The notes under the pieces were generated by a model. That model made no database searches. It was not told where the DNA came from and saw only the letters and a list, made by a program, of their open reading frames with translations. DNA of 64,000 nt, taken from Agreia bicolorata (GTDB taxonomy: Bacteria > Actinomycetota > Actinomycetes > Actinomycetales > Microbacteriaceae). A program made the position numbers and the translations under genes. The DNA is taken from contig NZ_JYFC01000001.1 in NCBI RefSeq assembly GCF_000938265.1, positions 186,001-250,000 of the forward strand. Direction: 5' to 3'. Shown in pieces: positions 42,226-47,591 of the stretch (the first letter of the stretch is position 1; each line of letters opens with the position of its first letter).

Positions 42226-43149
42226 ATGACGTCGCCGTTTCTGGTCTCGACAGCCGTCGCTGACGCTCTGGCCGACGGCCGGCCCGTCGTCGCGCTCGAA
42301 TCCACGATCATCTCGCACGGCCTGCCGCGACCGCGCAACCTCGAGGCTGCGCGCGAGTTCGAGCAGATCCTTCTATCGCGTGGCGTCACACCCGCCACGA
42401 TCGCCGTTCTCGACGGTGTCCCCTGCATCGGCCTCGACGCCGAGGGTGTCGAGCGCATCGCATCCGAAGATATGGCGAAGGCGAGTGTGCGAGACCTTCC
42501 GATTCTTGCGGCCAAGCGAATCAGCGGTGCGACCACGGTGGCTGCGACCGCATACCTCGCGGGTAAGGCCGGCGTACGGGTCTTCGCCACAGGCGGCCTC
42601 GGCGGAGTGCACCGCGGCGCAGGTCAGACCTTCGACGAGTCGGCAGATCTGTCCGCGCTCGCCATCTCCCCCGTGGCCGTCGTCTCTGCTGGCGTCAAGA
42701 GCGTTCTCGACATCGCAGCCACGCTGGAGCGACTCGAGACCCTCTCGGTTCCTGTCATCGGGTACCGCACCACGAACTTCCCGAGCTTCTGGCTGCGAGA
42801 GTCGGGTCACACCATCGACTGGTCCGTCGATTCGGCGGCCGAGATCGCCGCGGTCATGCACAGCCAAGATGCGCTGGGGCACGGCCAGGGCATCGTGGTT
42901 GCAAATCCCATTCCGTTGGATCAGCAGTGGGATCCCGAGGAGCACGACCGCGTTCTCGCGCAGGCATTCGCCGCGGCGGAAGCAGCAGGCGTTCATGGCA
43001 AGGCGGTCACGCCTTTCCTGCTCGGCTACATCGTGGACGCGTCAGGCGGCACGAGTCTCGAGGTGAACCTCGACATCGCGCGCAACAATGTGCGTCTCGC
43101 AGCCGACATCGCCACCGCATGGAGCGAGCGTGCGCCCGGCCGTGAGTGA
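42226..43149 (+). CDS. psuG: Pseudouridine-5'-phosphate glycosidase
   Basis: A 307-residue enzyme that splits pseudouridine 5'-phosphate into uracil and ribose 5-phosphate. The opening ALESTIISHGLPRPRN (about residues 24-39), the catalytic Lys in AKRISGATT, and FATGGLGGVHRGA are all family landmarks. Length is normal. The GAGGT site supports the ATG. It is followed by a PfkB-type kinase overlapping by eight bases, the usual partner psuK. Confidence 0.95.
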   Translation: MTSPFLVSTAVADALADGRPVVALESTIISHGLPRPRNLEAAREFEQILLSRGVTPATIAVLDGVPCIGLDAEGVERIASEDMAKASVRDLPILAAKRISGATTVAATAYLAGKAGVRVFATGGLGGVHRGAGQTFDESADLSALAISPVAVVSAGVKSVLDIAATLERLETLSVPVIGYRTTNFPSFWLRESGHTIDWSVDSAAEIAAVMHSQDALGHGQGIVVANPIPLDQQWDPEEHDRVLAQAFAAAEAAGVHGKAVTPFLLGYIVDASGGTSLEVNLDIARNNVRLAADIATAWSERAPGRE

Positions 43150-44083
43150 TCGCGGCGCGGCGCCCGTTTCGGCCGGTTCACCCCGCGTCGTCGTGTTCGG
43201 CGACGTGATCGACGACATCATCGTCACGCCGAGCGGTGACATCCGGCCCGACACCGACACCCCCGCCAGTATCGTGCGCACGGCCGGCGGTTCTGCCGCC
43301 AACTCCGCGGCGTGGCTGGCGTGGGCGGGCTGCCATGTCGACTTCGTGGGCCGGGTGCACGTCACCGATCTCGAGCGGCATCGCGCCCTGCTCGTCGAGG
43401 CGAGAGTCAGTCCTCACCTTCTCGGAGAACCCGACCTCCCGACCGGAGCGATCGTCGTGATCGTGTCGCCCGACGGCGCCCGCACCATGCTCACCCAACG
43501 GGGAGCGAACGCCGCGCTCTCCCCGCGCGATATCGGCGCCGAACGTCTGTCGCGGGCGAACCACCTGCATTTCACGGGATACTCGATCTTCCGGCACGCG
43601 AGAACATCCGATTTCCCCGAGCTCATCCAACGGGCGCACGAGGCTGATGTCACGGTGAGCGTCGATCCGGGATCAGCTGGCTTCATCGAGGATTTCGGTC
43701 GCGATCGATTCCTCGACGCCATAGACGGAGCAGACATCGTCGTTCCGAATCTCGATGAAGGGCGTGCACTCACCGGACTGCCCGATCCGGCATCCATCGT
43801 CGACTCTCTGGTCGATCGTTTTCCGCTTGTCGCCCTCACCCTCGGCCGGGAGGGTGTCGCTCTGGGAACGAACGACGGGATCCGCCTCTCTGCTCCGAGC
43901 AAGGCCATGCACGCCGTCGATACGACCGGCGCCGGAGATGCGTTCTGTGCCTCGTTCCTGTCTGTTCTGCTGCATGGGCCCTCGCGCGATCGCGATGTTC
44001 TTGCGCGCGCCGTCTCGAGCGGCCTCGACACGGCGGCACGCGCCGTCGCCAGCGTTGGGGCGAGGCCAGTGCCCACCGCGTAA
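43142..44083 (+). CDS. psuK: PfkB family kinase, likely pseudouridine kinase
   Basis: A 313-residue ribokinase-fold kinase. The family signatures GGSAANSA (about residues 48-55) and DTTGAGDAF (about 260-268, with the catalytic Asp) are clear. The second Gly-rich site is intact. Because it follows psuG with an eight-base overlap from a GTG start, it most likely phosphorylates pseudouridine at O5', the step before PsuG. Ribokinase-like sugar specificity cannot be excluded by sequence alone. Its TAA stop also forms part of the next gene's -10 box. Confidence 0.82.
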   Translation: MSDRGAAPVSAGSPRVVVFGDVIDDIIVTPSGDIRPDTDTPASIVRTAGGSAANSAAWLAWAGCHVDFVGRVHVTDLERHRALLVEARVSPHLLGEPDLPTGAIVVIVSPDGARTMLTQRGANAALSPRDIGAERLSRANHLHFTGYSIFRHARTSDFPELIQRAHEADVTVSVDPGSAGFIEDFGRDRFLDAIDGADIVVPNLDEGRALTGLPDPASIVDSLVDRFPLVALTLGREGVALGTNDGIRLSAPSKAMHAVDTTGAGDAFCASFLSVLLHGPSRDRDVLARAVSSGLDTAARAVASVGARPVPTA

Positions 44084-44086
44084 AGT
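44081..44086 (+). promoter_or_regulatory. -10 box (TAAAGT) of the M20 peptidase gene, leaderless
   Basis: TAAAGT, six bases, then the GTG at 44093. The first three bases are the psuK stop codon, so one triplet serves both roles. Confidence 0.6.
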
Positions 44087-44092
44087 CGTGGT

Positions 44093-45451
44093 GTGGAAGA
44101 CGAGGCGGCCGAGCGGCACAGCGATGCACGGGCACTCGACCACCTGCGCACGCTGATCAGAATTCCCACCGTCTCCCGTCTCGACGAGTCGTTGACCGAC
44201 TGGTCGACGTTCGATGAATTCATCTCCACTCTCGCGCGGCTCTACTCACGGGTTCATTCCACGCTCTCGGTGGACATCCTCGACGGACACGCGCTGTTGT
44301 TCCGTTGGGTAGGCCGATCGCCCGGCAACGAGTCTGTGCTGATGGCCCATTACGACGTCGTGGCAGCCGACGACGAGACGGGCTGGACGCATCCGCCGTT
44401 CGCCGGGGCCGTGACCGGCGCGGGCGCCGAGCAGATCGTCTGGGGGCGGGGAACGCTCGACGACAAGGGAGCCCTGACCGCCATTCTCGAGGCGGTCGAG
44501 GGCCTTCTCGACGCCGGCTTCACTCCTGAGCACGACATCTACCTCAGCTTCGGCCACAACGAGGAGACGGCCGGGTCGGGAGCTGCGGCTCTTGCGGCCG
44601 AGCTCATGAACAGAGGGGTGCACCCCCGACTCGTGCTCGACGAGGGCGGTGCCGTCATCGAGCATGTGTTCCCGGGCGTGAGCCGACCGACCGCCGTGGT
44701 CGGCGTGAGCGAGAAGGGCATGGCCAACGTCACACTGACTGTCGGACAGTCCGGTGGTCACGCCTCGACTCCCCCGCGGCTGACGGCCACGGCCAGACTC
44801 GCCAGGGCGCTCGTGCGCCTCGAGAAGCGGCCTTTCCCCGCGTCGCTGTCAGCTCCGACCGTCGAGATGATCCGAACGATCGGCGCGCATTCCACTCCAA
44901 TGCTTCGCTTCGTGTTCACGCGGGCGCAGACCTTTCGCCTGCCCCTGATCGCCCTGTTCGGCCGTCTCAGTGACGAGACGAACGCCATGATCCGAACGAC
45001 GGCCGCCGTAACGCAGCTTCGTGCGAGCGACTCGGCGAACGCGTTGGCCGAACATGCCGTTGCCGTCGTCAACACTCGCATTGCGATCGACTCCTCCGTC
45101 TCGGCGACGCTGCGACACATCAGGCGCGCGGTCCGAGACCCGCTCGTGTTGATCGAGGCGACAACTCCGAGCGAGCCGTCTCCCGTGTCACCCTCCTCGG
45201 GTCCGCTGTGGCAACTCCTCACAGACACGATCACCGCTGTATATCCCCGCGCGGTCGTCTCGCCCTACGTTATGCTCGGCGCGAGCGACGCTCGACATTT
45301 CACGGCCATCAGTTCGCATGTCTACCGGTTTACGCCGTTCGAGATGTCTTCTGCGGAACGCGCGACGCTGCACGCGATCGACGAACGAATGCACGTGCGC
45401 ACGTTCTTGTCTGGAATACGGTTCTACAGAACCCTGATCGAGCGACTCTAG
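44093..45451 (+). CDS. M20 family metallopeptidase
   Basis: A 452-residue zinc peptidase of the M20/carboxypeptidase S-like group. The metal ligands are in MAHYDVV (about residue 83), GRGTLDDKG and GHNEETAGSG with its Glu pair, and the late His is in ARHFTAISSHVYRF. The dimerisation domain is inserted in the middle. No signal peptide, so it is cytosolic. The likely role is hydrolysis of dipeptides or N-acyl amino acids. The GTG start is fixed by the promoter. Confidence 0.87.
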   Translation: MEDEAAERHSDARALDHLRTLIRIPTVSRLDESLTDWSTFDEFISTLARLYSRVHSTLSVDILDGHALLFRWVGRSPGNESVLMAHYDVVAADDETGWTHPPFAGAVTGAGAEQIVWGRGTLDDKGALTAILEAVEGLLDAGFTPEHDIYLSFGHNEETAGSGAAALAAELMNRGVHPRLVLDEGGAVIEHVFPGVSRPTAVVGVSEKGMANVTLTVGQSGGHASTPPRLTATARLARALVRLEKRPFPASLSAPTVEMIRTIGAHSTPMLRFVFTRAQTFRLPLIALFGRLSDETNAMIRTTAAVTQLRASDSANALAEHAVAVVNTRIAIDSSVSATLRHIRRAVRDPLVLIEATTPSEPSPVSPSSGPLWQLLTDTITAVYPRAVVSPYVMLGASDARHFTAISSHVYRFTPFEMSSAERATLHAIDERMHVRTFLSGIRFYRTLIERL

Positions 45452-45456
45452 TCGGC

Positions 45457-46131
45457 GTGCGGTTGCGTACGAGGCCGGTCTCCGGTCAGACGAGATCACG
45501 CACCGCCTTCGGGGTGGCGCGTGCGGTGGTGGCAATCGTGGGCGTCGTCGCCCTGGTCGGCGACTTCCAATACATTCTCGGCTTCAGCAGATTCTCCACG
45601 GTCAACTACTTCACCTACTTCACCAATCAGAGCAACGCGGCCGGAGTCGTGGTGCTGGCGATCGGCGCTTGGCTTTCGTTCAGACGCCCGACGGACCCGG
45701 GGTGGCTCATGACGGCCCGGATGCTCACGGCCACCTTCACGATCATCTCCGGAATCGTGTTCGGGCTCATCGTCAGCCAGGCGGGAGACTACAACTACCG
45801 CATCGTCGTTCCCTGGTCGAGCCAGCTGCTGCACTTCTGGATTCCGTCCTACGTGATCATCGACTGGATCTTCGCGCCCGGTCGCTCGAGAATCCCGTGG
45901 CGGCGGCTATGGCTCGTTCTTATCTACCCGCTCGTGTGGGGCGGCTTCACCATGATCCGAGGCTCGATCGTGGGCTGGTACCCCTACTTCTTCCTCGACC
46001 CGGGCCAGGTCTCGGGGCCCCTCGAATTCGCTGCGTACTCCGGCGCAATCCTGCTCGTCATCGTTGGGCTGGCAGCAGGGCTGGTAGCGCTAACGAGACG
46101 ACGAGGTCACGACACGGGCAGGAAGGGCTGA
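45457..46131 (+). CDS. Pr6Pr family membrane protein
   Basis: About 224 residues with six membrane segments. The family pattern is seen as YFTYFTNQSN (about residues 48-57), RIVVPWSSQLLHFWIPSYVIIDW in outline, and the Trp/Pro-rich WWYPYFFLDP-like stretch. Pr6Pr proteins resemble AIG1/FAR-17a lipases but their role in bacteria is unknown. The start is uncertain; the GTG at 45457 is chosen since it is the first good frame position five bases after the M20 stop. It ends inside the convergent amine oxidase gene. Confidence 0.72.
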   Translation: MRLRTRPVSGQTRSRTAFGVARAVVAIVGVVALVGDFQYILGFSRFSTVNYFTYFTNQSNAAGVVVLAIGAWLSFRRPTDPGWLMTARMLTATFTIISGIVFGLIVSQAGDYNYRIVVPWSSQLLHFWIPSYVIIDWIFAPGRSRIPWRRLWLVLIYPLVWGGFTMIRGSIVGWYPYFFLDPGQVSGPLEFAAYSGAILLVIVGLAAGLVALTRRRGHDTGRKG

Positions 46132-47591
46132 AGGCTGGCTACTGCGATGTCTCGCACCTCGTTGTCACCGAGATCTGCGAATGCTCGCGCGGCGCTGCCC
46201 CCGACCAGACCGATCAGAACTGCATCTCCCGTCAGGGGCATGAGGTTGATCCACTGGGTGATCATCGGGGCGTTCTCGTCTGCCGGGGTCGCTGAGGGCG
46301 CAGGAGTCGAATCCGCCGCGAACGGGGGCGAGTCGACCACCAGGCTCCAATAAGCAGCCGTCTGCGTCCAGAACGGAGTGTCGTAGCGCAGCCAGACCTT
46401 CTCCACGGCGCCGGATCCGAGGGTGGCGATGGCCGTGCGGTGACCGAAGGGAAGTGGGGGGTCAAACGTGATCGAGTCCGATTGGAGCACGCCGAGAGGC
46501 ACAGTGACGATCACCCGGTCGACTCGAATGGACTCGCCCGTCGCCATCTTCAACCGAACGGCGTCGTCGCCGAGCGATACCTCGCGCACCGGTGTCGAAA
46601 GCGCCACGTCGGCGCCGTCGAGCGCGTCGACGATCACTTGGTGGGCTGAGCCGACCACGAACGCGTCACCGCCCTCGCCTTCGGCCGCATCGTCTAGTCC
46701 ATACCAGGTGGAGAGCTCGTCGGCATCGGCCCCGAGCGTCGTGACGACGACCCTGTCGACATATTCTGCGACGCGCGATGCCGGGGTGACGCCGATCTCA
46801 TCTGCTGTGACGTTGACTGATGCATCGCTCGCCTGTGCAAGCGACTCTCGCAGGCTCGGGTCTCGCGACTGGGCGGCCCCCCACGTGACTGCGGCATCGA
46901 CCGCGTCCGGGCCGATGGCGTTGTCTGGCACTGTGTCGGATGCCGTGGTGAGCTGCACTCGCGATGTGGCGTCGACGGGCACCGTGACGACATCGACTGC
47001 CTTGAGCTGATCTGTCAGGCTCGACGAGTCGACGCCGCGAACGAAACTCGGGCCGAGATCGACGACAAACGGCCAATCACCGGGACCGTGGGCATCCACC
47101 CGACCGCCGACGCGGTCGCGGCCCTCGAAAACGACCACCTCGTATCCTGCGGCCACCAGCGCTTTGGCTGCGGCGGAACCTGCGAGTCCCGCGCCGACAA
47201 TGCCGATGCGTTCGCCGTCGGACGCCTGGCGGAGCACGTCGGCTGCCGCTCGTTCGCCTGAGCTCTGTGCCCCGTTCATCGTGCCGGGGAACTCGCTGCT
47301 CGTCGCCTCACCGGCGAAGAAGATGCGATCGGAGACGCTCTCTGCAAGAGCCTTGCGGGCGTCTGGAGATGTGCCCGTCGGAATGTAGCTGGTGCTTCCG
47401 AGCGAGAAGGGGTCGGCTGCCCAGTTCGACCGGATGAAGCCGTTCGGCGATGGGACCGTTCCGGGCGTCGGTGTCGGTGTGGGTGTCGTCGATGTGGGCG
47501 CAGGCGACGGCGGACCGACACAAGCAGACAGGGCGAGGACGGCCGCACCCGTTGCAGCGCCCACCAGGAAGGTACGACGATCCACGGTCAT
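46107..47591 (-). CDS. Flavin amine oxidase, apparently circularly permuted, Tat lipoprotein
   Basis: A 494-residue secreted flavoenzyme. RRTFLVGAA with LSAC (Cys about residue 24) marks a Tat-exported lipoprotein, and a Ser/Thr/Pro tether follows (residues 25-50). Next comes the segment that normally ends amine oxidases: NWAADPFSLGS (56-66), FFAGEATSSEFPGT (91-104) and GAQSSGERAA (107-116). Only then does the FAD-binding GIVGAGLAG (130-138) with FEGRDRVGGR (155-164) begin. The C-terminus stops at LQPFLPVS, just where that segment would usually follow. The order is thus permuted around the FAD fold. Substrate unknown. It lies 28 bases downstream of the SGNH gene on the same strand and overlaps the convergent Pr6Pr end. 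Confidence 0.85.
   Translation of the reverse strand: MTVDRRTFLVGAATGAAVLALSACVGPPSPAPTSTTPTPTPTPGTVPSPNGFIRSNWAADPFSLGSTSYIPTGTSPDARKALAESVSDRIFFAGEATSSEFPGTMNGAQSSGERAAADVLRQASDGERIGIVGAGLAGSAAAKALVAAGYEVVVFEGRDRVGGRVDAHGPGDWPFVVDLGPSFVRGVDSSSLTDQLKAVDVVTVPVDATSRVQLTTASDTVPDNAIGPDAVDAAVTWGAAQSRDPSLRESLAQASDASVNVTADEIGVTPASRVAEYVDRVVVTTLGADADELSTWYGLDDAAEGEGGDAFVVGSAHQVIVDALDGADVALSTPVREVSLGDDAVRLKMATGESIRVDRVIVTVPLGVLQSDSITFDPPLPFGHRTAIATLGSGAVEKVWLRYDTPFWTQTAAYWSLVVDSPPFAADSTPAPSATPADENAPMITQWINLMPLTGDAVLIGLVGGSAARAFADLGDNEVRDIAVASLQPFLPVS

Follow-up and report, generated by a model that had tools for sequence, protein, structure and literature searches.

A flavin amine oxidase gene with its segments in swapped order

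We analyzed a stretch of 64,000 nucleotides from Agreia bicolorata (contig NZ_JYFC01000001.1, positions 186,001 to 250,000; here called the window), in which a gene for a circularly permuted member of the flavin amine oxidase family (Pfam PF01593) lies at 46107..47591 on the minus strand. The gene starts with an ATG at 47591, stops at 46107-46109, and encodes 494 amino acids; the minus strand is the coding strand, and the plus-strand frame is interrupted by stops. In the translation, RRTFLVG (residues 5-11), LSAC with Cys24, a Pro/Thr-rich stretch, W57..DPF..GS, FAGEA (residues 92-96), GAQSSGERAA (residues 107-116), and GIVGAGLAG (residues 130-138) follow one another in this order, and the chain ends with PFLPVS at residue 494, which confirmed the motif positions and the end point given in an initial annotation of this DNA.

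All parts of the gene are given here on the minus strand. Residues 1 to 24 (47520..47591) match, as a sequence pattern, a twin-arginine translocation (Tat) lipoprotein-type signal, with RRTFLVG and the lipobox LSAC ending at Cys24. A Pro/Thr-rich tether of about residues 25 to 49 follows (residues 25-47 at 47451..47519; predicted local distance difference test [pLDDT] mostly 57 to 65). The moved segment, residues 45 to 122 (47226..47459), corresponds to the usual C terminus and carries the W..DPF..GS, FAGEA, and GA..SG..AA motifs; within it, FAGEA (47304..47318) has G94 in 104/104 and E95 in 102/104 of the permuted proteins described below. A junction linker of residues 123 to 127 (47211..47225), between a predicted helix (105-122) and a predicted strand (128-132), leads into the body, residues 128 to 494 (46110..47210), which corresponds to the usual N terminus and middle and has an LSD1-like predicted fold. 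The body contains the dinucleotide-binding motif GAGLAG (residues 133-138, 47178..47195), with G133, G135, and G138 in 104/104 permuted proteins, and Lys398 (46398..46400).

Several profile searches agreed on the order of these parts. A genome-level search with PF01593 placed model positions 369-443 (residues ~46-120) ahead of positions 1-375, the latter match overrunning the stop by a few codons; a scan of the protein placed model positions 1-366 at residues 136-492, with a whole-protein score of 200.2 bits against the curated cut-off of 19.8. Alignments to LSD2 in a search of PDB sequences were likewise swapped. We then ran a profile of 23 conventional-order relatives (21 actinobacterial proteins, one Haloarcula plasmid protein, and one Synechocystis plasmid protein; model length 428) on 104 permuted proteins. 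In the window protein, model positions 348-425 fell at residues 45-122 and positions 5-342 at residues 128-488, and in 104/104 permuted proteins positions ~347-425 came first and positions ~3-345 second. The bodies ended at model positions 327 to 353, and the first parts started at positions 338 to 354, with the exception of one permuted oxidase (L142, in genome G635) that starts at 375 and is without the W..DP front of the first part. Besides the window's, 103/103 complete permuted proteins had three separate segment models in the order C-part, N-part, middle; in 21/21 conventional proteins the order was N-part, middle, C-part.

These results bore out the claim of the initial annotation that the last motifs of the family had moved to the front: the two parts took complementary model ranges in swapped order. 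A second FAGE motif at the C terminus, which it had named as evidence against such a move, was not found in the window protein by sequence or profile mapping. The parts are swapped and complete, and nothing of note is missing or present twice, as a circular permutation by definition requires; chance is excluded because the order is conserved across the permuted proteins. The usual linear order (Rossmann unit first, FAGE segment last) is absent here; in our view that order is customary and not defining for the PF01593 superfamily. In comparisons with five congeners, the ratio of nonsynonymous to synonymous substitution rates (dN/dS) was 0.06 to 0.20 in the moved part, 0.09 to 0.20 in the body, and 0.01 to 0.16 in residues 105 to 150; these figures are rough (dS up to 1.7), and all are well below 1.

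Predicted structure and FAD site

An AlphaFold2 model, a step that the initial annotation had recommended, gave one confident fold (pLDDT, 91; predicted template modeling score [pTM], 0.88) in which the fold of the flavin adenine dinucleotide (FAD) and substrate domains is present and residues 113-494 superpose on LSD1 at 2.3 Å. The FAD-binding GxGxxG, Glu, and GGR motifs and the FAGE segment are all there (G133, G135, G138, E156, G162, G163, R164, G94, and E95), and they are invariant or nearly so across the permuted proteins. Judged by the pTM, the pLDDT, and this conservation, the moved segment probably completes the FAD site. Compared with the usual order, the chain would have been opened in the loop that precedes the W..DP strand of the normally C-terminal segment. 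The helix that normally closes the chain would connect, via the short linker, to strand 1 of the Rossmann unit that binds FAD.

Catalytic residues, export, and likely chemistry

Lys398 sits where, in our reading, LSD1, polyamine oxidase (PAO), and monoamine oxidase (MAO) have their flavin-facing lysine, and Lys398, Tyr69, and Thr104 presumably correspond to Lys661, Tyr761, and Thr810 of LSD1; all three residues are kept in the window protein. A twin-arginine motif and a lipobox cysteine are also present, so that the Tat lipoprotein signal and proline-rich tether proposed ahead of the moved part were matched at the level of pattern. The best reading of the window protein is thus a putative surface-anchored FAD amine oxidase, Tat exported and lipid anchored. 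From these features we infer Tat export, anchoring, FAD binding, and amine oxidation: the protein would probably fold and take up FAD in the cytoplasm, leave it folded via the Tat pathway, be lipid anchored at Cys24 through the Pro/Thr tether, and most likely oxidize an amine with O2 as the acceptor. Amine oxidation by the window protein seems to us fairly probable.

Several observations weigh against this reading. The lysine is replaced in 62/104 permuted members (T in 28, V in 10, S, L, and R in 6 each, and Q and A in 3 each), and the window's own group accounts for 60 of these; at position 69, 42/104 permuted proteins have Tyr and 40/104 have Phe. No superposition places the moved segment in its usual position, since none of the structural alignment rows spans it, and the longer Foldseek alignments to LSD1 (468 to 508 columns) had root mean square deviations of 4 to 16 Å and template modeling scores of ~0.6 or less by query length. 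The Tat and lipobox calls are pattern based, and no neighboring gene of the window locus points to a given amine.

We looked into how the lysine was distributed. The main group comprises the Microbacteriaceae permuted proteins minus L084-L087 and L091, which leaves the window and 78 other loci; of these 79 members, 42 are in our tree, where they form one clade at 100/100, and the rest were assigned by family and similarity. The lysine was kept in 23/23 conventional relatives, in 42/104 permuted proteins overall, in 23/25 permuted members outside the main group (Arg in the other 2), and in 19/79 inside it, where Thr takes its place in 28. Position 104 was Thr in 94/104 permuted proteins. Because the lysine is mostly kept outside the main group and mostly lost inside it, the loss looks like a later event within the Microbacteriaceae. 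Because it is lost in 62/104 members and position 69 varies, amine oxidation is not to be assumed family-wide.

The low retention in the main group hints at changed chemistry, in which a permuted flavoprotein would keep the fold and act as an FAD dehydrogenase or desaturase rather than as an H2O2-forming amine oxidase. This explanation draws on the replacement of the lysine in 62/104 permuted versus 0/23 conventional members and on the conserved pairing with a membrane-protein gene (see below), and for the family as a whole it is a serious rival; the lysine is nevertheless kept in the window protein and in 23/25 members outside the main group, and amine oxidases and demethylases score best among the PDB relatives. 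We consider changed chemistry possible but rather unlikely.

A regular expression found a twin-arginine-like motif and a lipobox in 78/78 main-group homologues besides the window; among the 25 other permuted members, 12 had both motifs, 10 had the RR pattern alone (unconvincing in L124 and L140), and 3 had neither. We also considered whether the permutation is tied to the lipid anchor, an idea that five members without a convincing signal (L124 and L138-L141) weaken, as do the Tat-like signals of some conventional relatives. Four of these five (L138-L141, in genomes G412, G488, G344, and G411) are permuted proteins from two other families of the order, sit on a long tree branch, and are perhaps cytoplasmic.

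Distribution of the permuted order

A match was found in 289/299 Microbacteriaceae genomes, and 101/299, the window's included, had a junction-spanning match in permuted order. Two of these 101 genes are incomplete: one is split over two contigs (G012) and the other over two frames (L090, in G221), the latter perhaps a pseudogene or a sequencing error. The remaining family matches were weaker, and the 13 that were read (L088 and L092-L103) were all in conventional order. The permuted order was present in 5/5 sampled congeners. A scan of genome contigs with exact peptide patterns, which retrieved close relatives only, found the gene in five named Agreia genomes at 81% to 89% identity; four of these are very probably four of the five sampled congeners (identical alignment figures).

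Junction-profile searches extended the range. Among 396 genomes of the order (E up to 1e-12), the members outside the family were those in G412, G488, G344, and G411; among 394 genomes of the class (E up to 1e-19), 14 genomes outside the order had members, two of them (G712 and G968) cut by contig ends; and among 296 genomes of the phylum (E up to 1e-19), 4 genomes outside the class had members. In two other Actinomycetota classes, 3/148 and 2/66 genomes had permuted members, counting genomes found earlier. The later finds in other classes, L168 and L169, are outside the 104, and four permuted loci whose open frame is incomplete (L089, L090, L154, and L156) and duplicate sequences were left out of the counts. 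Beyond the Actinomycetota, the search covered plasmid records rather than other phyla genome-wide; it gave 7 matches, all at <60% identity, and the two that were read (Haloarcula and Synechocystis) were in conventional order. The permuted form is thus common in the Microbacteriaceae and sparse elsewhere in the Actinomycetota.

These distributions bear on two further explanations. If a C-terminal piece of one amine oxidase had been fused to another that was itself truncated, an identical motif order would result in a nonfunctional protein; we regard this as very improbable, since the two parts complement each other to within a few residues, the order is common to several genera and classes, dN/dS is low in both parts, and both are predicted as one fold. 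An assembly or sequencing rearrangement, to which unpermuted homologues in every close relative would have pointed, is contradicted by the same order in the five named Agreia genomes and in 101/299 family genomes, and its probability is negligible. The search for the same order in related genomes, proposed in the initial annotation, upheld its central claim: circular permutation is supported by the profiles, by the congeners and other genera, families, and classes, by low dN/dS that includes the junction, and by the confident prediction of a single fold. We conclude that the window protein is very likely a permuted, folded flavoprotein of the flavin amine oxidase superfamily (MAO/PAO/LSD type).

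Evolutionary origin

We constructed a tree of 86 rows: 65 permuted proteins chosen by manual thinning of the 104, and all conventional ones except L166 and L167 (21 of 23). One clade at 100/99 held 44 permuted rows, the window's included, and the other permuted groups were interspersed with conventional rows, with partly weak support. The tree requires 3 changes of order, and the permuted rows stood together in 0/200 bootstrap trees; a single origin was not rejected (approximately unbiased test, P value = 0.178). The cut site common to the permuted proteins fits either a single origin or a structural constraint.

Candidate tandem-duplication intermediates were sought in four genomes where a stop lay inside the junction match (G771, G990, G740, and G1130). 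All proved to be conventional genes whose matches overran the stop or entered the signal peptide, and no tandem intermediate was found among these four loci. One of the genomes (G740, locus L147) carries a pair of conventional amine oxidase genes in the same orientation, ~1 kb apart; the second gene of the pair encodes a Tat lipoprotein-like signal. More speculatively, one ancient permutation spanning several Actinomycetota classes might have relocated the lipid tether, from the Rossmann side of the protein to the side of the substrate domain, and thereby re-aimed the active site at the membrane, with the Microbacteriaceae branch then mostly losing the catalytic lysine and becoming a new envelope redox enzyme with the Pr6Pr membrane protein described below; we consider this scenario improbable as a whole.

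Relation to known enzymes

Few flavoenzyme folds have been studied as thoroughly as the MAO/PAO/LSD fold, and drug targets are among its members. The window protein differs from the amine oxidase domain of LSD1 and LSD2 (KDM1A and KDM1B) in its permuted order and its Tat lipoprotein-type signal, and the SWIRM domain of these KDM1 enzymes is not among the 3 Pfam families that it matched at E 0.001. Polyamine oxidases (maize PAO, murine PAOX, and SMOX) have the conventional order, unlike the window protein. Bacterial and archaeal relatives of conventional order, with the Rossmann unit first and the FAGE segment last, such as L134, the second gene of L147, L166 (Haloarcula plasmid), and L167 (Synechocystis pSYSM) have the same three segments as the window protein, and L147 and L166 share a Tat-like signal with it.

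Among the open-access matches listed, covered as titles and beginnings of abstracts, we found no paper on a permuted amine oxidase; most subscription journals lay outside this scope. Circular permutation and the superfamily are both known, and their widespread, conserved combination appears to be undescribed within the searched literature. A well-studied enzyme related to human monoamine oxidase and LSD1 has seemingly been rewired in many actinobacteria with its predicted fold kept. Such a natural, conserved permutation marks a point at which the MAO/PAO/LSD chain tolerates new ends. It makes it possible to ask whether the Rossmann unit must be synthesized first for folding, and it provides a scaffold whose termini lie on a different face. 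The lysine-less members are natural variants, within one family, for probing the role of the flavin-facing lysine.

Gene neighborhood

An open frame for a Pr6Pr family membrane protein (NF038065, 112 bits) lies at 45208..46131 on the plus strand; its true start may lie further in. It is convergent with the oxidase gene, the 3' ends overlapping by 25 bases. Besides the window, 78/78 main-group loci have a Pr6Pr gene facing the oxidase 3' end, within 202 bases in 75 and at 629, 664, and 1153 bases in the others; one was found in 0/27 other permuted loci, for which the fetched flanks were short. Because the Pr6Pr family is present in 259/299 family genomes, often in several copies, presence alone is uninformative, and only the adjacency is informative. 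No paper was found for the product name "Pr6Pr family membrane protein" in the open-access literature search.

The SGNH hydrolase gene that lies just upstream of the oxidase gene was found in loci of the genus only. Beyond it is a DUF2867 gene, likewise seen in genus loci only, plus a weak 31% match in L085, with most flanks too short to show this gene. Elsewhere in the window, Indigoidine_A, PfkB kinase, and M20 peptidase genes stand in a row at 42226-45451 on the plus strand, and we take the Indigoidine_A and PfkB kinase pair to suggest pseudouridine breakdown.
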